From positions 1-21,585 of IMG/VR virus record IMGVR_UViG_3300033146_003231: 21,585 nt of DNA, one strand, 5' to 3'. Of the stretch, positions 61 to 21,585 are shown piece by piece (position 1 is the first letter of the stretch; the number at the start of each line of letters is the position of its first letter). The notes beneath the pieces were generated by a model, which had not been told where the DNA came from, made no database searches, and saw nothing but the letters and a program-made list of their open reading frames with translations. The translations under genes were made by a program, and so were the position numbers. The DNA is from a virus.

Positions 61-420
61 TTAACCTATAGTATCGAATAATACACCAATATTATCACGG
101 TAATATCTAAGTCTAGTAAGAAATTCTTCACTTGGATATTGACGTATTAAATCATCAGTCTTTTTATCTCTAATCTGAACTAACAATTGGTTCTCATCAT
201 TTGCATAACTGAATCTTAGACTATCACCTATTATAGGCATACTGTTTAACCCAGCTAATACTTTATCAAGTTCAGGCTTATCGGTTTTTGCTTCTTCCTG
301 TACTTCTTTTTGTTGAGTCTCAATAACCTTCTCGGGTTTTAAAACTTGATTTGATAATTCTTTTGCAGAAATATTAGGGCTAAATACCTCACTAACTGCT
401 TTTCCTATTTGTTCTAACAT
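61..420 (-). CDS. flaG: FlaG family flagellar protein
   Basis: 119 aa. The C-terminal half (about residues 65-119) has the FlaG pattern: LRFSYANDENQLLVQIRD, then DDLIRQYPSEEFL and a closing GVLFDTIG. The N-terminal half is charged and low in complexity, as in bacterial FlaG. FlaG affects flagellar filament length in several bacteria, and in Campylobacterota it is often encoded near flagellin, fliD and fliS. The start ATG (420-418) overlaps the upstream gene's stop (ATGTTAG), so the two are translationally coupled. Together with the flagellin this makes a flagellar module in what otherwise reads as a phage genome. Whether it was captured from a host or belongs to a decoy or modification strategy cannot be seen here. 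Confidence 0.85.
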   Translation of the reverse strand: MLEQIGKAVSEVFSPNISAKELSNQVLKPEKVIETQQKEVQEEAKTDKPELDKVLAGLNSMPIIGDSLRFSYANDENQLLVQIRDKKTDDLIRQYPSEEFLTRLRYYRDNIGVLFDTIG

Positions 421-767
421 AATACTAGATACTCTTTAATACCGTTACTTTTTTCCGATACTTGTTTTAATTCTTCATAATCTTTAACTAATTTAATACT
501 AATATCTATTGTATTTTTAGTATCTTCTTCTGAATTTCCAGAACCAGCTTTATAAGCATCAATTTTATTCTGAGTAACTTCTGCAGCGACTTTAGTCGTT
601 TGCATATCAGTTAAAGAAGGTGTAAAATTCTGCATCTCTTCTTTAGTATCTTGCTCTGCGTTTTTTACTTCTGCTTCTACTTTATTTTGTAACTCATTTA
701 GTTTACCGTTGTACTCTTCTTGTATTGGTTGTGAAGGTATTCCTGGTTGAATTGGTTGTATAGTCAT
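414..767 (-). CDS. Coiled-coil protein between flagellin and FlaG
   Basis: 117 aa, family not recognised. A proline/glutamine-rich N-terminus (MTIQPIQPGIPSQPIQ) precedes charged, heptad-like helices (NGKLNELQNKVEAEVKNAEQ and the C-terminal third). No signal peptide or membrane segment. An AAAGGATAT ribosome site precedes the ATG. It lies between flagellin and flaG on the same strand and overlaps flaG, so a filament-related role such as export partner or structural accessory is possible. It does not resemble FliS or FliD, so the flagellar role rests only on position. Confidence 0.65.
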   Translation of the reverse strand: MTIQPIQPGIPSQPIQEEYNGKLNELQNKVEAEVKNAEQDTKEEMQNFTPSLTDMQTTKVAAEVTQNKIDAYKAGSGNSEEDTKNTIDISIKLVKDYEELKQVSEKSNGIKEYLVLC

Positions 768-833
768 TTTATATCCTTTAGTCTATCACTATATTATTTA
801 TTATATAGCAATAAACTTAAAACTAAATTAAAT

Positions 834-2861
834 TTATCTTAAGAAACTAAGAATTAATTGTTGTGATTCTGCTGCTTTACCTGCTGCCCACGCACCTGCT
901 TGTAGTTGTAGTGATAATTTTTGAGAATTAGCACTTTCTGCTGCGAAGTCAACATCTCTAATTTGAGATTCAGCCGCTTGTACATTTGCTGATGTCGCTT
1001 CATTAACTCTAACTCTTGATTCTAAAGAAATTTGTGTACTACCTACATTACTTCTAATAGCATCAATGCTTTTAATCGCAGCATCAATACTTACGATTGC
1101 TGCATCAGCACCTGCTTGAGTGGTTAAATCTAAATCACCATCTGCGACACCCATTGTAGCAATATCGGCATTAGTAATAGTCATACCAATTGTTTGACCA
1201 GATTCTGAACCAACATGGAATTTTTTACCGGTAAATGTACCATCTAATAAATTAATTCCATTGTATTGTGTTTGTTTTGCAATATCATCTGCTTGTAACA
1301 TTAGTTGTTTAACATCTTCTTCTAATGCTGCACGAGCCTCTGGCGAATTTGTGTCCGAAGATGCTTGAACTGCTTTATCTCTTGCTAAAGTTAAAAGTTC
1401 AGTGTACTCGTTAAGACCCGCATCTGCGATTTGAGTTAAACCAATCGCATCTTGTGCGTTTTTATTACCTTGTAATAAACCTTGTGATTGAGTTCTAAGT
1501 TGATTAGCAATTGCTAGTCCTGCCGCCATTTAACTTCAAATTAAATCGTTAATTTAATTTCGTTCTCTTATGAACTGCTATATGTTTCCATATAGATGAG
1601 ACTATATCTTCCGGCTATTTCTAGCTTGAGTGGTACTTCGGAATAACTTTATTCCTACTCCCTATCGGGATAGTCGTTGAACCTTCTTCTTTAACTTAAT
1701 ATTAAGAAGCTCGGATGCTGATTGTCTAATCCTAAAGATTTTCAAACATTCATAGTCTAATTTCTTGACTATTGTAGTTCTTTGGGCTCTCAAGAGTTTC
1801 CAGCAATTCTCCACTTTTATAGATGACACACGGCATATAAATCTTCTAAAAGGATTGAACATTTATCTTGTTTTGAACAGTTTTCGGAATGATGGATAAT
1901 CTCTAGGTTATTAATGTTACCAATTACATTTGGCAACACACTTAATCTAAATCCTTCATTTATTGAAAATCTATGGTCAAGGTGATGAGCATTTTCGATT
2001 AAGTCTGCTCTTCCTCTCAACTCTATATTAGGTAGTGATGATAAATTACATTTATTAGTTATTTTCCAAACTTGTAATTTATAGTCTTGATAGTCACTTA
2101 AAATTTTAGGAGGTAATTTTGGATATTTACATAAAATTTCTTTCAATGTAATCGAGCCATTATCTATTTTTGTTAGATAACCTTTCCTATATATTTCTTG
2201 TAACATTTTATAAGTTTTATTTGAATAAGTTTCTAATCTTATTTTATGAGAATCGCTCCCAATATAACCAAAAGTATTATTTTCTGATTTAGTTTTATTC
2301 ATTTTATTTCTTATTTCACTATTTTTAGTTTGGTCTTTACCTATAAATCCTAATTTTCCTGTTCTTTCTATAATATCTCTAGGTCTACTTTTGTTTAGTG
2401 TTTTGGTTATATTTTGTTTTTTGGTTGCTTCACTTAAATTGTGATTTTTATCAACACAACTCTTACACATATAATCAAATCCCTTATATAAACCTAGCCT
2501 ATCATTAAATGTTCTCATTATAGTTTTTGATTTAGTATTACAAGAAGGACAAATATATACTATACTATCATTATGAGATATTCTTTTTTCGTCAACATAA
2601 ATCACTTTCTGTTTAATTGAACCTGAATGTCTATACCACATAGTATAATTATTTGTTTTAATTCCTGATATACTTAAAATCTTAACCATAATATATTTCC
2701 TTTTTTATATTATTTATATTTTTCTATTTATCATCTGCTGCACGATTAATTCTAAAACCACTTGATAATTTTTCTAATGAACTGTCTAGTGAACCTTGTG
2801 TTTGTCTGTTATACATATTTGCGAATAAACTCGCTGTATTTGTTTGAATTGAAAAACTCAT
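834..2861 (-). CDS. Flagellin, gene split by a group I intron (exons 2861-2730 and 1526-834)
   Basis: Exon 1 gives residues 1-44, beginning MSFSIQTNTASLFANMYNRQ and ending GFRINRAADD. Exon 2 restores the frame with AAGLAIANQLRTQ. The joined protein is about 274 aa. The D0/D1 N-terminal flagellin core and a D1/D0 C-terminus (ESQIRDVDFAAESANSQK to LILSFLR) are present with almost no variable central domain. Without splicing, exon 1 runs AADDK-stop. The C-terminal D0 helix (LSLQLQAGAWAAGKAAESQQ) departs from the usual pattern of alternating small and polar residues, so packing into a host filament may differ. Start ATG at 2861-2859 follows AAAAAGGAT. A 6-bp leader hairpin (2900-2885) and a TATAAATA promoter (2935-2928) lie upstream. 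The 14-aa-conserved junction region is the strongest identity evidence. Confidence 0.9.
1817..2689 (-). CDS. HNH homing endonuclease encoded in the flagellin intron
   Basis: 290 aa. An N-terminal zinc-binding part has CPSC (C47, C50) and CKSC (C75, C78). The C-terminal HNH nuclease core starts at about residue 234: AHHLDHRFSINEGF, then NNLEIIHHSENCSKQDKC. The middle is basic and probably binds DNA. The gene starts 40 nt into the intron after AAAAAAGG and a TATAAATA box, and ends inside the P1 guide sequence. The expected role is to cleave intron-less flagellin alleles at the AADD/AAGLA site and so drive intron homing. The organisation resembles phage T4 intron endonucleases, but the nuclease family here is HNH. 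Confidence 0.88.
   Translation of the reverse strand: MVKILSISGIKTNNYTMWYRHSGSIKQKVIYVDEKRISHNDSIVYICPSCNTKSKTIMRTFNDRLGLYKGFDYMCKSCVDKNHNLSEATKKQNITKTLNKSRPRDIIERTGKLGFIGKDQTKNSEIRNKMNKTKSENNTFGYIGSDSHKIRLETYSNKTYKMLQEIYRKGYLTKIDNGSITLKEILCKYPKLPPKILSDYQDYKLQVWKITNKCNLSSLPNIELRGRADLIENAHHLDHRFSINEGFRLSVLPNVIGNINNLEIIHHSENCSKQDKCSILLEDLYAVCHL
2711..2718 (-). promoter_or_regulatory. TATAAATA late-type promoter inside the intron
   Basis: The octamer TATAAATA is followed by ATATAAAAAAGG and the HNH start codon at 2689. It matches the T4 late promoter consensus read by gp55-type sigma factors, and would let the endonuclease be made from a short late transcript independently of flagellin. Confidence 0.6.
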
Positions 2862-6183: not shown

Positions 6184-6451
6184 AGGTTGTAGTGGAGATT
6201 ATTTAAGACTCAGCGACTATACTTGGACTGGTGATTTAGATATTCTCGATTGCGATGAAAATAAATTAGCATATCTAAATTTTGCTAAGTATAATAAAAG
6301 TCTCACTTACTCTGAATTTATGGAGAAGAGTTTTGAAAATATTCCAGGGATATTCTGGCCTATTATCTCGATAATTGCTTCAGTAAGTTATTGGAAACAG
6401 AAGAAGAATATTGAAAAATTTGAAGATGAAAATCCAGAATATTTTATTTAA
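6164..6451 (+). CDS. Small protein with one membrane segment, 95 aa
   Basis: The ATG at 6164 is preferred over 6134 because AAAAAGGATATTA precedes it. The protein begins MIQDYSRGCSGDYLRLSDYT, has one hydrophobic span (IPGIFWPIISIIASVSYW) and ends DENPEYFI. It overlaps the upstream gene by 20 nt. Unknown function; probably expressed together with the membrane protein before it. Confidence 0.6.
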   Translation: MIQDYSRGCSGDYLRLSDYTWTGDLDILDCDENKLAYLNFAKYNKSLTYSEFMEKSFENIPGIFWPIISIIASVSYWKQKKNIEKFEDENPEYFI

Positions 6452-6775: not shown

Positions 6776-6819
6776 TAACACCTGCAGATATTTACAGAGA
6801 CGTTATAAATAAAGTATAA
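6772..6819 (+). CDS. 15-codon stub before the endonuclease leader
   Basis: MITPADIYRDVINKV-stop, coupled to the preceding stop by ATGA. The stop lies within the 5' arm of the structured leader. It may be the cut-off start of the gene that resumes at 7742, as seen with the BRCT stub at 3964, but no sequence similarity proves this. Confidence 0.35.
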   Translation: MITPADIYRDVINKV

Positions 6820-6918
6820 GAGATATTAAATGTGTATGTGAGTTGCTCTTTCCGGACTCTTCTCATATACATTTAATGTAGTCCGGAATACTGCCCTCTT
6901 ATAATTAAATTTATAAGG
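6803..6918 (+). ncRNA. Pseudoknotted leader of a GIY-YIG endonuclease (copy 1)
   Basis: Outer pairing is TTATAAAT (6803-6810) with ATTTATAA (6909-6916), and TATAAGAG (6815-6822) with CTCTTATA (6896-6903). Inside, a 16-bp stem with a 2-nt bulge (6825-6842 with 6862-6877) has a loop element TTCCGGACT (6850-6858) that pairs with AGTCCGGAA (6880-6888) downstream, forming an H-type pseudoknot. A TATAAATA box (6804-6811) lies in the 5' outer arm; the AAGGA ribosome site (6915-6919) overlaps the end of the 3' outer arm. The antisense copy at 20306-20414 has the same plan with different stem sequences. Confidence 0.8.
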
Positions 6919-6924
6919 ATACGA

Positions 6925-7755
6925 ATGACTTATTTGTATATAAAAACTCACAATAAAACTGGTCTACAATATTTTGGAAAATTTACTGGAACAGAAAGAA
7001 GATTTAAAAAATATAAAGGTTCTGGATTATACTGGAAAAGGCATATAAAAAAACATGGATATGATGTAACTACCAATATATATTCTATATTCGATATTAA
7101 TAATTGTAATATCGAAGATGTAGCATTGGATTTTTCTATAGAAAATAATATAGTAGACTCAAAAGAATGGGCTAACTTGGTTTTAGAAAATGGATTAGAT
7201 GGTTCTCTAAATAATCTAGGTAAAAAATTATGTAATGATGGTATTTTACAAAAATATTTTAGGGAAGATGATATACCACATAATTTTAATATAGGCAGCA
7301 TTTACGAATATAAATGGTATAATGATGATATAAACGAATATTTTATTACTATAAAGAATAGTAAAAATCTTAAACTTGGGAGACTAAAGAAAAAAGGGGA
7401 GTATTATAATAATGGAAAAGAATTATTATTGATTATGAATAAAATAAATATTCCTAAAGGTTTTGTAAAAGGTGGAATTATAAGTAAAGTCTATAATAAT
7501 GGTATAATAGAAAGACGATTTAAAACAGATGATATAATACCAGAAAATTTTAATCGTGGTATGCTAAAATTAGGTAAATGGTATAATAATGGGGAGATGG
7601 AAAAAAGGTTTAGAATAAATGAACCGATAACAAAGGGTTTTGAATTAGGCCAGATTATTGTAACCTGCCCACATTGTTTAACTAAATGTAATAAAGGGAA
7701 TGCTAAAAGATGGCATTTTAATAACTGTAAAAAGGCAATTGATGTATATAACTGA
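6925..7755 (+). CDS. GIY-YIG homing endonuclease with YNNG-type repeats
   Basis: 276 aa. The N-terminal GIY-YIG domain (residues 1-95) shows YLYIKTHN, YFGKF, YKGSGLYWKRHIKKHG and NNIVDSKEWANLVLENGLDG, the style of T4 Seg-like enzymes. The middle has spaced repeats of the form KWYNNGEMEKRF followed by a GF.xG turn. The C-terminus has a CPHC...HFNNC zinc-finger-like end. The first 95 residues closely match the antisense gene at 20296, while the C-terminal DNA-binding parts differ, as expected for enzymes with different targets. It is preceded by a structured leader, and its last 14 nt overlap the start of the next gene. Confidence 0.85.
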   Translation: MTYLYIKTHNKTGLQYFGKFTGTERRFKKYKGSGLYWKRHIKKHGYDVTTNIYSIFDINNCNIEDVALDFSIENNIVDSKEWANLVLENGLDGSLNNLGKKLCNDGILQKYFREDDIPHNFNIGSIYEYKWYNDDINEYFITIKNSKNLKLGRLKKKGEYYNNGKELLLIMNKINIPKGFVKGGIISKVYNNGIIERRFKTDDIIPENFNRGMLKLGKWYNNGEMEKRFRINEPITKGFELGQIIVTCPHCLTKCNKGNAKRWHFNNCKKAIDVYN

Positions 7756-13502: not shown

Positions 13503-14084
13503 ATGAAAAAAACAATTGTACTTATAAATGGAAAGAAAAGAAGTGGTAAAGATTTTAGTGCTTCTATCTTACATGAAAAATTAGCAGTCAAAAATACTGT
13601 TACTACAATGTCGGTCGCTGGACCAATGAAAAATATAATTTCTACAATTTTTGGAATTAGTTTAGAGCAACTAGACAAATTTAAAAATGAGCCTGAAAAT
13701 TATATGATTAAAATTGATGGTTTTCCAGAATACGAAGGTACAACATTTAGACAAACTTTAACTAGATTTGGTACTGATGCAATGTACCCAGAATTCGGTG
13801 AAAATGTATGGGCAGATTTATTTGTGTCTAAAATTAAAGAATCTAAATCTGATATTATTTTAGTACCCGATTTTAGATATATTAGTGAGCATGTTTCTGC
13901 CTTAGAAACTGGTTTTAACGTTGTAACATTATTCATTAATAATGATGAGTGCGATAGTGTTGATACACATAGAAGTGAAACAGAACTTGATGATTTTCGT
14001 TTTGATTACAGCATAGATAATACTGGTTATAGCGAAAAGCTATATGACTATTTAGATACATTTATTGCAGAGAAATTAACATAG
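13503..14084 (+). CDS. Deoxynucleoside monophosphate kinase (T4 gp1-like)
   Basis: 193 aa. A P-loop GKKRSGKD (residues 10-17) opens the protein after strand TIVLIN. Further family features are FRQTLTRFGTDAMYPEFGEN with VWADLFV, the DFRYISE segment, and THRSETELDD near the C-terminus. Such kinases phosphorylate dNMPs to dNDPs in phage DNA synthesis. It starts after AAAGGAATATA, 11 nt beyond the deaminase gene, and stands just ahead of the polymerase region. Confidence 0.85.
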   Translation: MKKTIVLINGKKRSGKDFSASILHEKLAVKNTVTTMSVAGPMKNIISTIFGISLEQLDKFKNEPENYMIKIDGFPEYEGTTFRQTLTRFGTDAMYPEFGENVWADLFVSKIKESKSDIILVPDFRYISEHVSALETGFNVVTLFINNDECDSVDTHRSETELDDFRFDYSIDNTGYSEKLYDYLDTFIAEKLT

Positions 14085-14191
14085 GTTTAAGTTAAGGTTA
14101 AAGTTAAGGTTAAGTTAAGGTTAAGTTAAGTTAAGGTTAAGTTAAGGTTAAGTTAAGGTTAAGTTAAGGTTAAGTTAAGGTTAAGTTAAGG
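14085..14191 (+). repeat. Tandem array of an 11-bp unit upstream of a promoter
   Basis: About nine copies of GTTAAGTTAAG, with small length variants (12 bp at the left, one 16-bp copy in the middle), run from the kinase stop to the next -10 box. The unit holds two TTAAG steps. It is the same tract found singly or doubly in the other promoters, expanded. No spacers are present, so it is not a CRISPR array. Confidence 0.92.
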
Positions 14192-14206
14192 TTAACACGT
14201 TATAAT
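14191..14206 (+). promoter_or_regulatory. Promoter at the end of the 11-bp array
   Basis: GTTAACACGT-TATAAT, followed by ATAGAAAATAAGGAGGATAT, a very strong ribosome site, and ATG at 14227. It drives the HNH endonuclease and polymerase N-half. Confidence 0.75.
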
Positions 14207-14274: not shown

Positions 14275-14964
14275 TTGATAAAGTTAGATAAATATATAAC
14301 TTTTTGTATTGATAATAATACAAATAATAGTGTAAAAAGTGATTTACATCATATATTACCTAAATCTCAATGGTTATTCCCACAGTTTGCAGACCTAAAA
14401 AATAATTGTTGGAATGGAACTTACTTAACACCAATTAATCATATTAAAGCACATAAATTATTAGCTGAGGCTATTAATCATTTATCAATTGATAAAGCTT
14501 TCACATGTTTATATGATTTTTCTTATGATGTATCTAATATGAATGAAGATGAAATAAATGATATAATTATAAGAGGTAGAAAACATTCTGAAGAAACTAA
14601 GCAAAAAATTAGTAAAAGTAATACTGGAAAATCCAGATTAAAAGGCGAATCTTCACCAAATTTTGGAAATAAACATAGTGATGAAACAAAAAAGAAAATG
14701 TCTAATAATCATGCAGATGTTTCAGGAGATAAAAATCCAATGTATGGGTGTAATAGAAGTGGTGAAGCCGGGCCAAACTTTGGAAATAAGCATAGCGATG
14801 AAGCAAAAAAGAAAATGTCTAATAATCGTAAAAATAAAGGCACAGGAAAAAGAGCAGGATATATTAAAAAAGCAAGCGTATGTATAATTTGCGGCTTAAT
14901 ATCTAGTAGTAATACTATAAGTAAATATCATAATGCTAAATGTAAAGGAAATAATAATGAATAA
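14275..14964 (+). CDS. HNH homing endonuclease with NUMOD3 repeats
   Basis: 229 aa from a TTG start. HNH core: LHHILPKSQWLFPQFADLKN then GTYLTPINHIKAHKLLA. From about residue 100 there are several NUMOD3-type DNA-binding repeats of the form GNKHSDETKKKMSNN, then a zinc-finger-like CIICG...YHNAKC end. Free-standing phage endonucleases have this layout. With the stop at 14266 the start is uncertain; reinitiation after the leader ORF is likely. The last 8 nt overlap the polymerase start, so endonuclease and polymerase are translationally linked. Confidence 0.85.
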   Translation: MIKLDKYITFCIDNNTNNSVKSDLHHILPKSQWLFPQFADLKNNCWNGTYLTPINHIKAHKLLAEAINHLSIDKAFTCLYDFSYDVSNMNEDEINDIIIRGRKHSEETKQKISKSNTGKSRLKGESSPNFGNKHSDETKKKMSNNHADVSGDKNPMYGCNRSGEAGPNFGNKHSDEAKKKMSNNRKNKGTGKRAGYIKKASVCIICGLISSSNTISKYHNAKCKGNNNE

Positions 14965-16870
14965 TTTTTCGGATTTTATGTACGAGAATGTATTTGAAAA
15001 ACCAGACTATTCAGGTAAAAAAGTAAAAAAACAAGTTTGGGCTAGATTATATAACCCCGCTACTAAACAAAGTGACTTTAAAAATGTCACTAGCTACAGC
15101 ATACCACACATTTATCAATATAGTAAAAATGGTCAGTTTGTCTCACATATAGATACTAGCCTAAAATTAACTCCTAAGAAATTCAACGAGATGGATGCTT
15201 TCGATAAATTCGTAAAAGAAATTAAAGTTGAAACTGGAGAAATGGTTCAGATTGAAGTTGATGGTGAAGAATTTGAATTTGAAGAAACTGTATTTGAAGA
15301 TGATGTATATGGATATACAAATAAACCTCACACATTTATTCACAGATATTTTACAGATGCTTTAAAATCAGACCACTTACATCGTACTTGGTTTTTCGAT
15401 ATTGAAACTCGCTCTGGTGTTGTAATACCAAATTCATTCCCGCATTCATATTTAGCCCTAGAAGAAATTTCTATGATACAGATATATGATAACTTTCTTA
15501 AAAGTTATATTGTAATTGGACTAAAAGATTTCACAGGTAAATTTGATGACCCTAAGAATACTAGATTTATTAAAGTTGATACTGAAGCAAAACTGTTAAC
15601 TTTATTTTTGCAACTATTAGAGAAGATGAAACCTAGTATTATTTCTGGTTGGAATAGTATGATGTTTGATATTCCTTATATTACAAATAGAGTCGCACGT
15701 GTATTAGATGGATTTAATGGACCTGTTGATGAGCTTAATAAAAAGAAATCTTATATTGAAATGGATAATGTTAAAAGATTAAGCCCTGTTCGTTCAGTGT
15801 ATGGAAGTTCAGCAAAAACTAAAGATGGAATGGAAGGGGTCACATCGCACTGGCAAGGAATTGCTTTAGTGGATTATCGTGAGCTTACAATTAAATATGG
15901 ATACTTAGGTTTACCAAGTTACTCTTTAGCTAACGTTGCAAGACACTTTGATTTATCACAAAAAATTGACCACTCTCAATATTCTAAATTTGATGATACA
16001 TATACGGGTGAGAATTATTTCATGCCTCTTGAACCAATGGTTGGAGATGAAGTATATGATATTCAGCTAGCATATAAAAATGGTACAGCGACTAAAACAG
16101 AAATGCAACAAGTTGTATATAATAGATTTGTTGATTACTCATTAAGAGATGTCGAGATACTTGTGCAACTTGATGAGATGACAAAATATTTAGCATCACA
16201 ACAAGGTATTGCATATACTTGTTCAGCATCATTTGATGATTGTTGGGGTACAGCTAAACACTGGAGTTCTTATATGTTTACTGAAGCACTTCAAAAACAA
16301 GAAGTCCTTCCGCTAACACAGAGATTCCCAGATAAAGATGTTGTATTCTTGGCTGGTTGGGTTAGAAATATGCCAGGAAAATATGAGTATATTTCTTCAT
16401 TTGACTTTACATCACTGTACCCATCGTTAATTATGGCTTTCAATATTGGAGCTGACGTATATGTGAATGATGAAGAAATGCACCAGGATTTAAAAGACCT
16501 CCGGGCTAAATTCTTTACTTATCACACTATGGAAAATGTTAATAGAGAATTAGTCTTACACGATGGAACTGAAGCAGCTCTTGGTAAAATGGTTCTTAAG
16601 CACAACGGAGAAATCTCAGATTTAGAAGAAGAAACTATTTTCTATAAATCTTTAATCGATAATAAAGATGAGATTTCTGCAGTGTTACAGAAGCACGATG
16701 TTTGTGCTACACCAAATGGATTTTTCTACAGAAAAAATAAAGAATCTCAAAGTTCTATATTAATGAGAAGAAACTTCTTAAATCGTGTAAAAGCGAAACG
16801 TGCTGGTCAAGCTGATGGTGCAGAACTTGAGAAACTTAAAAAAGAAATGCAACATAGAGGCTTATTATAA
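14957..16870 (+). CDS. 43: Family B DNA polymerase, N-terminal half (T4 gp43-like)
   Basis: 637 aa from ATG 14957, which follows AAAGGAAATAATA; an upstream ATG at 14933 adds eight residues without support. Exonuclease motifs are intact: Exo I FFDIETR (D148, E150), Exo II GWNSMMFDIPY (N233, D238), Exo III YSLRDVEI (D398). Polymerase motif A SFDFTSLYPSLI has the metal ligand D483. The frame then ends at LKKEMQHRGLL, in the fingers region ahead of motif B. Motifs B and C are in the gene at 17879. So this chain has the 3'-5' exonuclease and half of the palm, and must join the second chain to polymerise. An antisense endonuclease gene starts right at the break. Confidence 0.92.
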   Translation: MNNFSDFMYENVFEKPDYSGKKVKKQVWARLYNPATKQSDFKNVTSYSIPHIYQYSKNGQFVSHIDTSLKLTPKKFNEMDAFDKFVKEIKVETGEMVQIEVDGEEFEFEETVFEDDVYGYTNKPHTFIHRYFTDALKSDHLHRTWFFDIETRSGVVIPNSFPHSYLALEEISMIQIYDNFLKSYIVIGLKDFTGKFDDPKNTRFIKVDTEAKLLTLFLQLLEKMKPSIISGWNSMMFDIPYITNRVARVLDGFNGPVDELNKKKSYIEMDNVKRLSPVRSVYGSSAKTKDGMEGVTSHWQGIALVDYRELTIKYGYLGLPSYSLANVARHFDLSQKIDHSQYSKFDDTYTGENYFMPLEPMVGDEVYDIQLAYKNGTATKTEMQQVVYNRFVDYSLRDVEILVQLDEMTKYLASQQGIAYTCSASFDDCWGTAKHWSSYMFTEALQKQEVLPLTQRFPDKDVVFLAGWVRNMPGKYEYISSFDFTSLYPSLIMAFNIGADVYVNDEEMHQDLKDLRAKFFTYHTMENVNRELVLHDGTEAALGKMVLKHNGEISDLEEETIFYKSLIDNKDEISAVLQKHDVCATPNGFFYRKNKESQSSILMRRNFLNRVKAKRAGQADGAELEKLKKEMQHRGLL

Positions 16871-17788
16871 ATGATATATTTTATCTAACTCCAATAATAT
16901 ATCATTTTTTACTGATATATTAAACCATTCTGTTCTCCCATCTCCTTCTAATAATGGATTATTATCTAAATTATATTTACGATGATAATAATCCTCATAC
17001 ATATATACATGTGCAAAAAAATATTTTTTTACTATTTTTATATCAGGTATAAATTTTAAGAAAGATTTTATTCGCTCATCTGGTTTCATAGAAACACCTA
17101 TTTTAATCTTATTAAGTTCTTTAGATTCCATTATATATAAATACCCATATCTATAATATTTAGATGGGTCATAATATAAAGAATTTGATAACCCAGTACA
17201 AATTTGAGACCCATTTTTTACCCCATATTTATTCAAACATGATAACTCTTTATTTATTTTAGTCTCTTCTGAACTATTAGCACATTTTCTTCCGCAAAAT
17301 TTTGTGTATTCGCTAGCATGCGAATAAGTGTAAGTTGTTGCTTTTATTTTACAATTTGGGCACATTGGTTTTTTCACTATATTATTTGTAATACAATAAC
17401 CAGCCTCTCTTATACTATTACACCAGTATAACTCTTCTGGAATTATATATTCAATATTTGCTGATGATTTTAATCGTCCATTATTTGTGTAAATATCTTT
17501 CACATTATTTTTGTTAAGCATTTTGGCATCTTTATCTTTAGGCCTTACAATTGACCGTGAACAAGTAGTTGAACAGCATGCACTATAACCTGAGCTCATA
17601 TTCTTAAAATTTAATGGGTTGTTACAATAACATTTTGGTTCTATATCTATATTATTTTTATAACAATATACTGCCTCAATATTAGTCTTATGCCAGGTTT
17701 CTGGGTCTGGGATATATAATAATGATTTAGTTCTACTTATCCTATTGCCAGAAATTATATTTGCGTAATTATTTTTATTTAGTATCAT
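16865..17788 (-). CDS. Homing endonuclease-like protein with T5orf172-type GIY-YIG domain
   Basis: 307 aa. The N-terminal 190 residues have paired cysteine clusters (CYCNNP...CCSTTC; CPNC...FCGRKC) that look like zinc-binding DNA-recognition modules. The C-terminal part (from about residue 213: YRYGYLYIMESKEL, KIKIGVSMKPDERI, YYHRKYN, GDGRTEWFNIS) fits the T5orf172/MUG113 branch of GIY-YIG nucleases. It lies antisense between the two polymerase halves. Its stop shares 6 bases with the end of the N-half gene, which fits an insertion that truncated gene 43. No ribosome site; a TATAAATA box lies 4 nt before the ATG. Confidence 0.8.
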   Translation of the reverse strand: MILNKNNYANIISGNRISRTKSLLYIPDPETWHKTNIEAVYCYKNNIDIEPKCYCNNPLNFKNMSSGYSACCSTTCSRSIVRPKDKDAKMLNKNNVKDIYTNNGRLKSSANIEYIIPEELYWCNSIREAGYCITNNIVKKPMCPNCKIKATTYTYSHASEYTKFCGRKCANSSEETKINKELSCLNKYGVKNGSQICTGLSNSLYYDPSKYYRYGYLYIMESKELNKIKIGVSMKPDERIKSFLKFIPDIKIVKKYFFAHVYMYEDYYHRKYNLDNNPLLEGDGRTEWFNISVKNDILLELDKIYHL

Positions 17789-17792
17789 ATAT

Positions 17793-17800
17793 TATTTATA
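17793..17800 (-). promoter_or_regulatory. TATAAATA four bases before the antisense endonuclease
   Basis: TATAAATA-ATAT-ATG, the same spacing as at 4009-4021. It predicts a leaderless late transcript. Confidence 0.5.
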
Positions 17801-17821
17801 AAATCTCTTTAATCAATAAGA

Positions 17822-17855
17822 GTTTAATAAAAGTTTAAGTATATAATGTTATAAT
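17822..17855 (+). promoter_or_regulatory. TTTAA-phased promoter for the polymerase C-half
   Basis: TTTAATAAAAG and TTTAAGTATATAATG (11 bp apart) lead to TATAAT (17850-17855), then TTAAAGGAACACT and ATG 17879. The second half of gene 43 therefore has its own promoter and ribosome site. Confidence 0.75.
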
Positions 17856-17878
17856 AGTATATGAATTAAAGGAACACT

Positions 17879-19016
17879 ATGAATTTAGAAAATTATTCTG
17901 ATGAAGAATTACTAAAAAAATACAGTGAATTACAGCAATCTAAAGACTTGAATGAAAATATTTCTCAAGTTCTTAAGATTTTGCTTAATTCTTATTATCG
18001 GCAGTCTCAGCATGGGTCATATTACGTACAGTAATGGTAACATAACAGCTTCTAGTATCACTACAGCAGGCCGTATGAGCAATAAGATAGCTTCTATGTA
18101 TGCTAGTAATAAAGTTGCAGGTATGCTTGGTGAGCCCACAGGGACAGATTTAAGATATGTTCCACAAGTAGATACTGATAGTTACTATCTAAATCTAGGT
18201 GATGTTGTTAAAACTAAGATGAGTAATTTCGATAAAGATAAAAAAGTGAAAGCTGTTCTTAAGATTTCTGATACTATTATACTTGAGAGTAATAAAAAAG
18301 CGATGGTAGATATTGCAGAAACATTAAACTTAAGAGATACTAAAGCCTTAAACTTAGAGAATGAAATTATTGCTGATGGATTTGTATCATTAGCAGCTAA
18401 AAGATATTTCGGTCGTAAAGTTGTAGAAGATGGAACTATATTAGCTAAACCTAAAATGAAGTCAACGGGTATATCTCTAGTTTCTAAGAAGACTCCTAAG
18501 TTTTTAAGAGATGCACTTGCACCTGTACTAGAAATTATACTTGATGGTACGAATTCAGATTTGAATAAGTATATCAAAGGGGTCCGAGCAGAATTTGGTG
18601 AGCTAAGTCCTACTGAATTTGCACGTTCAGCAAATGTTAATAATCTTTCTTATAGTCCTGTTGGATTTAAGTACAAGAGACAAAAGGAAGATGGTAAATT
18701 CTTAACAGCCCCAATGGGCTCGCACGCTTCTTTAGAGTTCAATAGATATATTAAAGAAAATAATATGACTGGAAAATACAACCCTATTGAGGTTGGTGAA
18801 GCAGTAAGTTATGTTTATATTAATGAACCTAATGAGAAAAAATTGCATGGCTCTTTAGCTTGGAATGACCCGAACTTTACAGATGATGTAGACTTAAAAG
18901 ATTTTGTATCTTATGCTGAACATTTTCATAAAGATTTTGAGAAGAAAGTTGAGATTGTTGTTAAGCCTATTGGATGGAATATTTATAATAAGACTGAAGA
19001 AATGGAAGTCTGGTAA
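17879..19016 (+). CDS. 43: Family B DNA polymerase, C-terminal half, with a +1 frameshift in motif B
   Basis: The first frame (17879-18034) reads MNLENYSDEELLKKYSELQQ to KILLNSYY and then stops as RQSQHGSYYVQ. Skipping one base (C at 17999) continues as GSLSMGHITYSNG, completing motif B KILLNSYYG. The next frame carries motif C QVDTDSYYLNL (D at 18171 and 18177) and the thumb KPKMKSTGISLVSKKTPKFL, similar to T4 gp43. The shifted product would be about 378 aa, so both halves together total about 1015 aa against 898 for T4 gp43. The skipped base is not in a homopolymer; TAT TAT CGG places a rare arginine codon in the A site. Programmed +1 shift, true mutation or sequence error are all open. Confidence 0.85.
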
Positions 19017-19579: not shown

Positions 19580-20296
19580 TTAATTCATATGAACACATAC
19601 TTTATTAAGTATTCCTAATTTTCTAGCGGCAGCATAAGCTCCACTAGAACCCCTCCCAAATTTTGTTCTTGTTGTATATTTTAACGCTTCAATTTTAATA
19701 TTATTTTCACACCATGATATTATTATAGCGGGCATATGCGAGCATACCTCATTCATTATTTTCCTTTTGGAAGCAGCTTGATATGCCATCAAATCATGTT
19801 TACGAAATTCATCTCTAGTTAAATATTTTGATGCTGACATTTTAATATTCGCATTTGTCCAAGTAAATTTTTTAATCATATGACTACATATATTTTTTAA
19901 AATACCTAATTTTAAAGCTGTTTGATAAGCCCCGCCACACTTATTTTTAAATTCGCTTCTATGTTTATATTTTAACGCTTCAATTTTAATATTATTTTCA
20001 TCCCACTTTATTATTCCACCATCTAAACCATTTTCTTCAGTTAAATTTGCCCAATCATTAGAGTCTACTATATTATTTCTTTTAGAAAAATCTAGAGCTA
20101 CTTCTTCTAATAATGGGTCATCTTCATAAAAAATACCGTATAATTCAGTAGTTACATTATAGTTATGCTTCTTAATATGCCTTTTCCAGTATAAACCGGA
20201 ACCCTTGTAGTTATGTATATTTTCATTTATTGTTTTACCGAAATATTTTAATTGTGTTATATTGTGAGTTTTAATATATAGATATACTAGTCGCAT
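19580..20296 (-). CDS. GIY-YIG homing endonuclease with A-Y-x-A-A/C-x-H-M repeats
   Basis: 238 aa. The GIY-YIG domain (residues 1-97: VYLYIKTHN, YFGKTIN, YKGSGLYWKRHIKKHNYNVT, NNIVDSNDWANLTEENGLDG) closely matches the gene at 6925. The C-terminal half consists of three repeats of about 47 residues, each with IKIEALKYK/T-x-R-x-F, an A-Y-x-x-A-x-K-x-x-I stretch and a C-x-H-M end. Such repeats are DNA-binding modules in other phage endonucleases as I recall. An AAGGATA ribosome site and a pseudoknotted leader precede it. Its stop abuts the stop of the convergent frameshifted gene. Confidence 0.85.
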   Translation of the reverse strand: MRLVYLYIKTHNITQLKYFGKTINENIHNYKGSGLYWKRHIKKHNYNVTTELYGIFYEDDPLLEEVALDFSKRNNIVDSNDWANLTEENGLDGGIIKWDENNIKIEALKYKHRSEFKNKCGGAYQTALKLGILKNICSHMIKKFTWTNANIKMSASKYLTRDEFRKHDLMAYQAASKRKIMNEVCSHMPAIIISWCENNIKIEALKYTTRTKFGRGSSGAYAAARKLGILNKVCVHMN

Positions 20297-20305
20297 ATAT
20301 TATCC

Positions 20306-20414
20306 TTATAAATTTAATTATAAGAGGAGTATGCTAGGACTCAAATTATATATGTAGATGGAGTCCTAGCATAGAGCATCTACATATATAATCTCTCTTA
20401 TACTATATTTATAA
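20306..20414 (-). ncRNA. Pseudoknotted leader of a GIY-YIG endonuclease (copy 2)
   Basis: Same plan as 6803-6918. A perfect 16-bp stem joins 20345-20360 with 20377-20392. Its loop element pairs perfectly over 13 bp with downstream sequence (20361-20373 with 20330-20342), making an H-type pseudoknot. Outer pairings are CTCTTATA (20395-20402) with TATAAGAG (20319-20326) and 20407-20414 with 20306-20313. The outer arms are nearly identical to copy 1, but the stem and pseudoknot sequences are entirely different and still pair, which is covariation. TATAAATA (20413-20406) lies in the 5' outer arm. Confidence 0.82.
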
Positions 20415-20543: not shown

Positions 20544-20599
20544 TAAGGTAACTTTGAATCTCCCAAAAACTTTTCAAATTTACCACCAGAAGCTTATAA

Positions 20600-20696
20600 T
20601 TTAAGCTAAAACTAATGTATAACATGTTATAATAGTACATATAAAGAGAGAGCGTTCAAACGAAACTCCTTCTTGAAAAGAATGAAAATTCTTTTT
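20600..20696 (+). ncRNA. Small promoter-hairpin-terminator unit 1
   Basis: Promoter tracts and TATAAT (20628-20633), a transcript from about 20640 with GAGCGTTCAAACGAAACTC (20650-20668; CGT-TCAA-ACG hairpin inside GAG/CTC), then an AAAAGAAT-GAAA-ATTCTTTT hairpin and T (20676-20696). Predicted RNA is about 57 nt. No ORF. Confidence 0.55.
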
Positions 20697-20752
20697 ATAT
20701 TTAAGCTAACTTTAATGTTAGTTATGGTATAATATAGAATATAAAGGATGAG
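20677..20752 (+). repeat. 76-bp direct repeat, copy 1
   Basis: Identical to 20777-20852 and exactly 100 bp before it. It covers the terminator-like hairpin, the phased tracts, TATAAT (20728-20733) and ATAAAGGATGAG. Confidence 0.95.
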
Positions 20753-20796
20753 TCTCGAAAGAAACTTTGACTTTAGAAAGAATGAAAATTCTTTTT
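20740..20796 (+). ncRNA. Small promoter-hairpin-terminator unit 2
   Basis: Transcribed from the promoter at 20728-20733. The leader GAGTCTCGAAAGAAACTT can fold as GAG-TCT-CGAA-AGA-AA-CTT, the same shape as unit 1 with exchanged inner pairs, and ends with GAAAGAAT-GAAA-ATTCTTTT-T. Confidence 0.55.
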
Positions 20797-20852
20797 ATAT
20801 TTAAGCTAACTTTAATGTTAGTTATGGTATAATATAGAATATAAAGGATGAG
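20777..20852 (+). repeat. 76-bp direct repeat, copy 2
   Basis: See 20677-20752. TATAAT at 20828-20833. Confidence 0.95.
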
Positions 20853-20901
20853 CGTTCAAACGAAACTCTTCCTTTATTTAAAAGAATTGAAAAATTCTTT
20901 T
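20840..20901 (+). ncRNA. Small promoter-hairpin-terminator unit 3
   Basis: Carries GAGCGTTCAAACGAAACTC again (20850-20868), exactly 200 bp after unit 1. It ends with AAAAGAATT-GAAA-AATTCTTTT (20880-20901), a nine-pair hairpin with the same GAAA loop but little T run after it. Confidence 0.55.
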
Positions 20902-20903
20902 GA

Positions 20904-20939
20904 AATTTAAGCTAGGTTTAAGCTTAAACATGGTATAAT
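20904..20939 (+). promoter_or_regulatory. TTTAA-phased promoter of the long structured RNA
   Basis: TTTAAGCTAGG-TTTAAGCTTAAACATGG-TATAAT (20934-20939): the most regular copy of the promoter type, with two TTTAAG tracts 11 bp apart. Confidence 0.75.
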
Positions 20940-20944
20940 ATAGA

Positions 20945-21585
20945 AGTAGAAGATAAGTTAGTTCAAAGAAGATATTGAGTTCAAAATTAAAAAATCGTAA
21001 TAGGTTTAATCTGATATTTTCTTTGAGTTAATTAAAATCATAGTAAACAGAAACGCTGGAGACTGTCCGTAAGGAAGATGCACCGGCCACTGGAGGTTAC
21101 TTGATTTACCTAAGCTGAAAGGTAATTAATTTTGTCAAGATTAGACTGTTTAAGACATAAAAATAAACAAAGGTATCGTTGATTCGTTGGAAGACTCGGA
21201 ATTGAATAAGTAGTAGAGGTTATAGTCTGCGAAAAAGAATTCAGGAAGAATGAGGAATGCAGGTACAAATTGATTCAATGAAGATTATTTGACACCAACC
21301 AGAGAATGGTATAGGTAATTTTCATTGAGTTAATCACTCTACCGTTGTAAGTTATAGGACTTTTGAGAACAAAGTAAAACTTTCCGAGAACCGTAACTCG
21401 TAATCTGTTCGGTGATTTTGAGACGAATTTGTAGAATAAAATTCTCAAAATCCTTGGTATTGATTATACTGAGGTTATACTTATATAGAAGCACCAGGAT
21501 GAATTTATTCACTGTAACAGACGCTAATATAAGTTAAGCAGTTCTTGGGTAAGGCTCAAACTCCCTTGAATTATACGACTGTAGG
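20945..21585 (+). ncRNA. Long structured non-coding RNA (continues past the window)
   Basis: At least 640 nt with no credible ORF and a balanced, less A/T-extreme composition than intergenic DNA nearby. Long helices can be read: 20958-20976 with 21013-21031 (19 pairs, four G·U); 21270-21289 with 21314-21333 (20 pairs including G·U); 21414-21430 with 21439-21452 (14 pairs, one bulge); 21479-21488 with 21524-21534. Smaller ones are 21044-21050/21146-21152, 21055-21059/21083-21087 enclosing a TCC-GTAA-GGA GNRA hairpin, and 21100-21104/21135-21139 enclosing TTACC/GGTAA. Long phage RNAs of this kind are known (GOLLD, ROOL), but membership cannot be judged by eye. No tRNA was found in it. Confidence 0.7.

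Follow-up and report, generated by a model that had tools for sequence, protein, structure and literature searches.

Why do two nuclease genes on one phage fragment sit behind leaders that differ in their inner sequences, yet pair in the same pattern? The leaders lie in a window of 21,585 bases, a complete IMG/VR record and a 21.6-kb piece of a T4-like phage genome. Its T4-like DNA polymerase gene, with a coding sequence interrupted by the insertion of a T5orf172 nuclease gene, has its nearest cultured relatives in Campylobacter T4-like phages at ~29% identity, and gp23 or gp43 genes on four leader-bearing contigs support a T4-like phage origin. Many window genes are preceded by TATAAATA, the T4 late-promoter consensus.

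We note some peculiarities of the window outside the leaders: (i) A flagellin ORF at 61-1529 (- strand) lacks the start of its N-terminal region (Pfam Flagellin_N matches from position 41) and is adjoined by a FlaG-like ORF, on what is a T4-like phage contig. (ii) The polymerase halves at 14933-19016 surround a T5orf172 nuclease gene of opposite orientation; the polymerase of the L284 contig is also interrupted. (iii) An array of ~11-bp repeats, GGTTAAGTTAA, occupies 14076-14206, ahead of a NUMOD3 nuclease ORF. (iv) The ORF-poor 626 nt at 20960-21585 fold better than shuffles (z -3.95) and have no Rfam or tRNA match; near-identical sigma70-like promoter repeats lie ahead of them at 20599-20945. 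This segment is possibly a large noncoding RNA.

Both leaders follow one order: TATAAATA, 3 nt, the P1 5' arm TATAAGAG, A, a CTC loop, B, A', B', the P1 3' arm CTCTTATA, SD and ATG. Helices A and B interleave as A-B-A'-B', i.e. as a pseudoknot, with A of ~16-20 bp in both leaders and the crossing helix B of 9 bp in leader 1 and 13 bp in leader 2; A and B are of different sequence in each leader, yet pair in both. The features are as follows, where R1 denotes a covariance model built from P1 and A, with B left out.

6804-6924, + strand: leader 1 overall
6804..6811, + strand: leader 1 late promoter TATAAATA, T4-type (from sequence)
6815..6822, + strand: leader 1 P1 5' arm TATAAGAG, proposed anti-sequestor (R1 match 6815-6903, 76.4 bits)
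6823..6842, + strand: leader 1 helix A 5' arm (helix search, 24-copy alignment)
6843..6849, + strand: leader 1 loop L1, TTGCTCT, with the conserved CTC (CTC in L1 of nearly all copies)
6850..6858, + strand: leader 1 helix B 5' arm TTCCGGACT (helix search, partner-swap test)
6860..6879, + strand: leader 1 helix A 3' arm (helix search, 24-copy alignment)
6880..6888, + strand: leader 1 helix B 3' arm AGTCCGGAA (helix search, partner-swap test)
6896..6903, + strand: leader 1 P1 3' arm CTCTTATA, common to P1 and the SD hairpin
6911..6919, + strand: leader 1 SD region TTATAAGGA, forming the SD hairpin with 6897-6904
6925..7755, + strand: GIY-YIG-like homing endonuclease ORF after leader 1 (tblastn relatives in 32 viral loci)
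20413-20297, - strand: leader 2 overall
20406..20413, - strand: leader 2 late promoter TATAAATA (from sequence)
20395..20402, - strand: leader 2 P1 5' arm (R1 match 20319-20402, 73.5 bits)
20377..20394, - strand: leader 2 helix A 5' arm
20374..20376, - strand: leader 2 loop L1, CTC
20361..20373, - strand: leader 2 helix B 5' arm TATGCTAGGACTC
20343..20360, - strand: leader 2 helix A 3' arm
20330..20342, - strand: leader 2 helix B 3' arm GAGTCCTAGCATA
20319..20326, - strand: leader 2 P1 3' arm CTCTTATA, common to P1 and the SD hairpin
20303..20311, - strand: leader 2 SD region TTATAAGGA, pairing with 20318-20325
19580..20296, - strand: GIY-YIG-like homing endonuclease ORF after leader 2 (N-terminal domain 65% identical to the first ORF)

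Pattern scans of IMG/VR viral contigs followed by an interleaved-helix search gave 24 unique copies; R1 added copies from the same contigs, and a scan with the SD-hairpin sequence alone brought in new copies on L498, L499 and L520, each with the whole pseudoknot. The pattern and covariance-model searches of IMG/VR thus total 31 intact copies on 17 contigs, which are related to one another, such that all counts given here are of non-independent events. Beyond these, one copy (L486) precedes a decayed GIY-YIG gene and another (L161, 4807-4887) is itself decayed; a single 81.7-kb contig holds six copies, the decayed one among them. At 6338 TAAATA sites, a set enriched by the retrieval patterns, the P1+A+B architecture occurs 30 times as against 2 after dinucleotide shuffling, which argues for an element beyond chance, and R1 found no match in ~2.3 Mb of decoy loci, mostly fetched by the same patterns. 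No convincing element appeared among the matches listed in a full-architecture scan of bacterial genome contigs, and R1 had no match on 24 bacterial-contig loci. The leader is absent from cultured relatives of the downstream nucleases (NBG2, KP185, RB16, p000v), blastn against cultured phages gave no convincing copy, and the exact 23-base 3' block is absent from viral contigs. A related-locus search with the second endonuclease as query returned no loci.

Is the fold itself selected? Alignment of the 24 copies shows 95.5% of P1+A cells paired, falling to 31-35% when the partner is slid by one column. Two-sided changes occupy 110 cells compared to 31.9 in shuffles, with none of 500 shuffles as high, and 15 of the 16 A pairs are altered in both arms. 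The sequences of the P1 arms are nearly constant and show almost no covariation; P1 could be conserved as sequence rather than as helix. For helix B, the pairing score is 25.1 with its own partner and 13.1 with swapped partners, the own partner being the best of all 24 in 22 of 24 copies. Because R1 was built without B, the B pairing in all five new intact copies that it found (one with a bulge) is an independent check. The original prediction had described the arms of both leaders and held that preserved pairing reveals selection on the RNA: the arms were found, with TATAAGAG/CTCTTATA, A and B all pairing, and further copies with compensatory changes support the claim of selection. Its description of the stems as completely different holds in that A is hypervariable, but some copies have stretches of A in common.

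The inverted repeats are visible in DNA, and an element acting as DNA, whether a cruciform, a binding site or a recombination site, might also be suspected from the apparent movement of leaders as cassettes, described below. Departures of helix A from Watson-Crick pairing, scored symmetrically on the transcribed-sense strand, are however 25 G-U and only one A-C, which indicates selection at the RNA level, and the leader keeps one orientation and a fixed distance to promoter, SD and ATG; a role in DNA is therefore highly improbable. The symmetric count for helix B is 8 G-U and 10 A-C cells, the A-C cells appearing at helix edges, so the RNA-level argument rests on A.

The promoter TATAAATA ends 3-6 nt upstream of P1 in 28/28 copies (the L498 copy has no perfect TATAAATA), and an ORF starts 18-26 nt downstream of the element in all 31 intact copies. 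Family searches recognized most of these ORFs as homing endonucleases of unrelated families, GIY-YIG, HNH and NUMOD3, along with DUF7487 genes; a few matched only unknown-function families or nothing above threshold and are called nucleases by sequence resemblance. The leader is not specific to GIY-YIG genes. Window leader 1 and the leader on L476 are near-identical, with a C-G to A-U exchange within helix B, while their downstream proteins have no significant similarity; leaders appear to move as cassettes.

A structured RNA adjoining nuclease genes on mobile elements invites comparison with HEARO or omega RNA, as an RNA partner or guide of the nuclease. This role is very improbable here, since one leader type stands before unrelated nuclease families, near-identical leaders (window 1 and L476) precede unrelated proteins, and the arms are self-paired. 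Leader cores match their own retrieved flanks just as they match control flanks from other copies (9.54 vs 9.53 nt), in agreement with the earlier view that the sequence implies no guide role. Rfam gave no match for the leader at gathering score, its HEARO/omega RNA and ribozyme families included, and on these grounds together (flank match equal to control, several nuclease families, no Rfam match) we set the guide candidate aside as unlikely.

Other leaders of GIY-YIG genes were seen in the same material. Eight loci (L003, L008, L012, L014, L046, L059, L067 and L068) have a second covarying leader motif, with the order, after ATAAATA, of stem1, C(A/G)C, a 4-bp stem (GATG/CATC, GGTA/TACC or GATA/TATC), loop, C/U, stem1' and CTAA; this second motif has no Rfam match. 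A separate A-B-A'-B' leader precedes a related GIY-YIG gene at L025 ~2390-2500, with the SD within B' and no P1 sequence of the window-leader family. At L007 ~1250-1326, a GIY-YIG gene is preceded by an I-TevI-like hairpin whose loop holds TATAAATA and whose 3' arm contains the SD.

What could the leader do for its gene? The P1 3' arm CTCTTATA is complementary to the SD region as well as to the P1 5' arm in 28/28 copies and in three added later, its partners in the SD region being TATAGGAG, TTATAAGGA or GATTATAA. The SD-hairpin partner is TATAGGAG or TTATAAGG in some copies and, in others, GATTATAA or GAATTATAA, immediately 3' of the SD, with pairing kept; in L478, where P1 is AACAAGAG/CTCTTGTA, the SD hairpin is altered to match. 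The hairpin has a mean z of -2.75 (below -2 in 26/28) and favors its own over swapped partners (p=0.009). The predicted unpaired fraction of the SD averages 0.15, versus 0.71 across 22 further genes of the window (p=3e-8). Having one strand in common, P1 and the SD hairpin are mutually exclusive: predicted SD accessibility is 0.65 with P1 forced and 0.17 with the P1 5' arm blocked, forced exceeding blocked in 28/28 copies. The predicted energies of A+P1 and A+SD hairpin, from nested folds without pseudoknot terms, lie <3 kcal/mol apart in 20/28 copies, compared as per-copy values and counts (the L479 structure is not evaluable). Such a strand, able to pair with either of two partners, is what a translational switch is built on.

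The outermost arms TTATAAAT/ATTTATAA had originally been taken for a conserved helix, for which the pairing is not convincing: the 5' half is the late promoter and the 3' half an arm of the SD hairpin. This complementarity, present in both window leaders, is also what an I-TevI-type late gate would use, whereby the promoter sequence TTATAAAT in read-through transcripts would pair the SD-proximal region and block translation, and late transcripts, lacking it, would be translated. Such gating is known for I-TevI/II/III, segB and Aeh1 mobE (PMC2988022), a late promoter lies just upstream of nearly all copies, and the plain hairpin of L007 holds TATAAATA in its loop. Across copies, however, promoter-SD pairing scores 13.75 with its own and 13.2 with swapped partners (p=0.056), predicted SD accessibility is 0.18 in read-through and 0.22 in late transcripts (p=0.11), swapping the upstream part has no significant effect on that accessibility, and A and B are left unexplained. 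With pairing not clearly copy-specific and no significant predicted change in accessibility, the simple form of this gating is not supported, and we consider late gating of the I-TevI type quite unlikely as an account of the leader.

T4 late promoters consist of an 8-bp TATA box, with transcription starting roughly one helical turn downstream (PMC2988020), and the P1 5' arm would sit near the expected late transcription start. A 5' end buried in P1 could instead serve as a stabilizer or ribosome standby site, the fold protecting the mRNA or holding ribosomes near the hidden SD. P1 lies at the expected 5' end with the ATG 18-26 nt after it, the seg43(25) hairpin stands upstream of a free SD (PMC2988022), and in another system an upstream pseudoknot is reported to mediate toxin translation (PMC11228461). 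A stabilizer, though, would have no need to lend its closing strand to the SD throughout the copies or to retain two long interleaved helices, and we think this reading unlikely.

Our favored reading is that the leader, placed at the start of late mRNAs that encode free-standing homing endonucleases, probably works in cis as a switch of their translation. Its computed basis comprises covarying A and B, a universal SD hairpin, the sharing of one strand, similar energies, and promoter and gene context. With the SD hairpin formed, the ribosome site would be covered (OFF); with P1 formed, the SD would be free (ON). The 60-75 nt A-B-A'-B' domain could be a clamp joining the P1 arms, changing from a long A hairpin to a B-containing pseudoknot and back, and so tipping the balance of P1 and SD hairpin. 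Helix A measures 14-21 bp across copies and the A'-B' gap only 0-5 nt, from which geometry full-length A and full-length B should not coexist; melting of the AU-rich base of A would permit the pseudoknot. That both helices are maintained makes it likely that two states are used. On kinetic grounds, P1 in fresh late-promoter transcripts may fold before the SD emerges, allowing translation, while transcripts that are refolded, deprived of their 5' end or unfolded by upstream ribosomes may adopt the SD hairpin. Points against the switch include that B pairing alone does not tell whether P1 or the SD hairpin wins, that a late start inside the P1 5' arm would shorten P1 in late transcripts, and that P1 itself, as noted, barely covaries. 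Of the three options first offered, a translational switch, a processing element or an RNA partner of the nuclease, the switch fits best, whereas a partner of one nuclease is unlikely with unrelated families served.

The trigger of the switch might be a protein. By analogy to gene 32, whose pseudoknot in T4 stands upstream of an AU-rich SD region (PMC3014915), a phage protein on the leader pseudoknot could spread over the AU-rich SD and repress, or stabilize P1 and activate. The CTC of L1, the sole conserved unpaired element, offers a candidate contact; with A and B hypervariable and only CTC conserved, a sequence-specific site would be very small. Such an operator is compatible with the translational switch, as its trigger, and seems to us unlikely.

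More tentatively, and with less confidence than in the switch as such, the leader may represent a new riboswitch-like RNA class of T4-like phages: a modular cassette of late promoter, pseudoknot and SD hairpin, reused by unrelated homing endonucleases, with alternative long helices as a folding clock or factor sensor coupling nuclease synthesis to freshly started late transcription. In the open literature, to which the search was confined, we found no description of the element. A 2010 review stated that no T4 riboswitch system had been characterized and that related genomes might yield candidates (PMC3014915); the leader is such a candidate. The family is compact and highly covarying, with many natural variants within single phage contigs, which makes the competition between P1 and the SD hairpin directly testable, and it suggests how unrelated selfish genes of one phage lineage use one expression cassette.

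Several known systems share parts of this arrangement. HEARO and IscB omega RNA are likewise structured RNAs adjoining a nuclease gene, but the leader serves several unrelated nuclease families and shows no evidence of guiding. Translational riboswitches have a domain closed by P1, one strand of which is common to the stem controlling the SD; the leader has the same strand sharing but, unlike riboswitches, no conserved ligand-pocket core, only the L1 CTC being kept. The gene 32 operator of T4, T2 and RB69 is also a pseudoknot upstream of an AU-rich SD in T4-like phage, but serves gp32 autoregulation, has no link to homing endonucleases, and is not described as sharing a strand with an SD hairpin (PMC3014915). 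The seg43(25) gene of Aeromonas phage 25 likewise has a stable structure just upstream of a homing endonuclease SD (PMC2988022); that leader is a simple hairpin with no TATAAATA and no crossing helix, and R1 had no match in the 50 kb searched. The hairpins of T4 homing endonucleases (I-TevI/II/III, segB, Aeh1 mobE) resemble the window leaders: their own leaders have a late or middle promoter, and RNA structure hides the SD (PMC2988022). Of the I-TevI type, the leader has the late promoter and predicted SD sequestration (28/28), and does not lose the arm from late transcripts. Those are single hairpins, lost from late transcripts that start inside the hairpin, whereas here every transcript contains the sequestering arm, which lies ~80 nt past the promoter, with a competing upstream arm and a covarying A-B-A'-B' domain between the competing arms.
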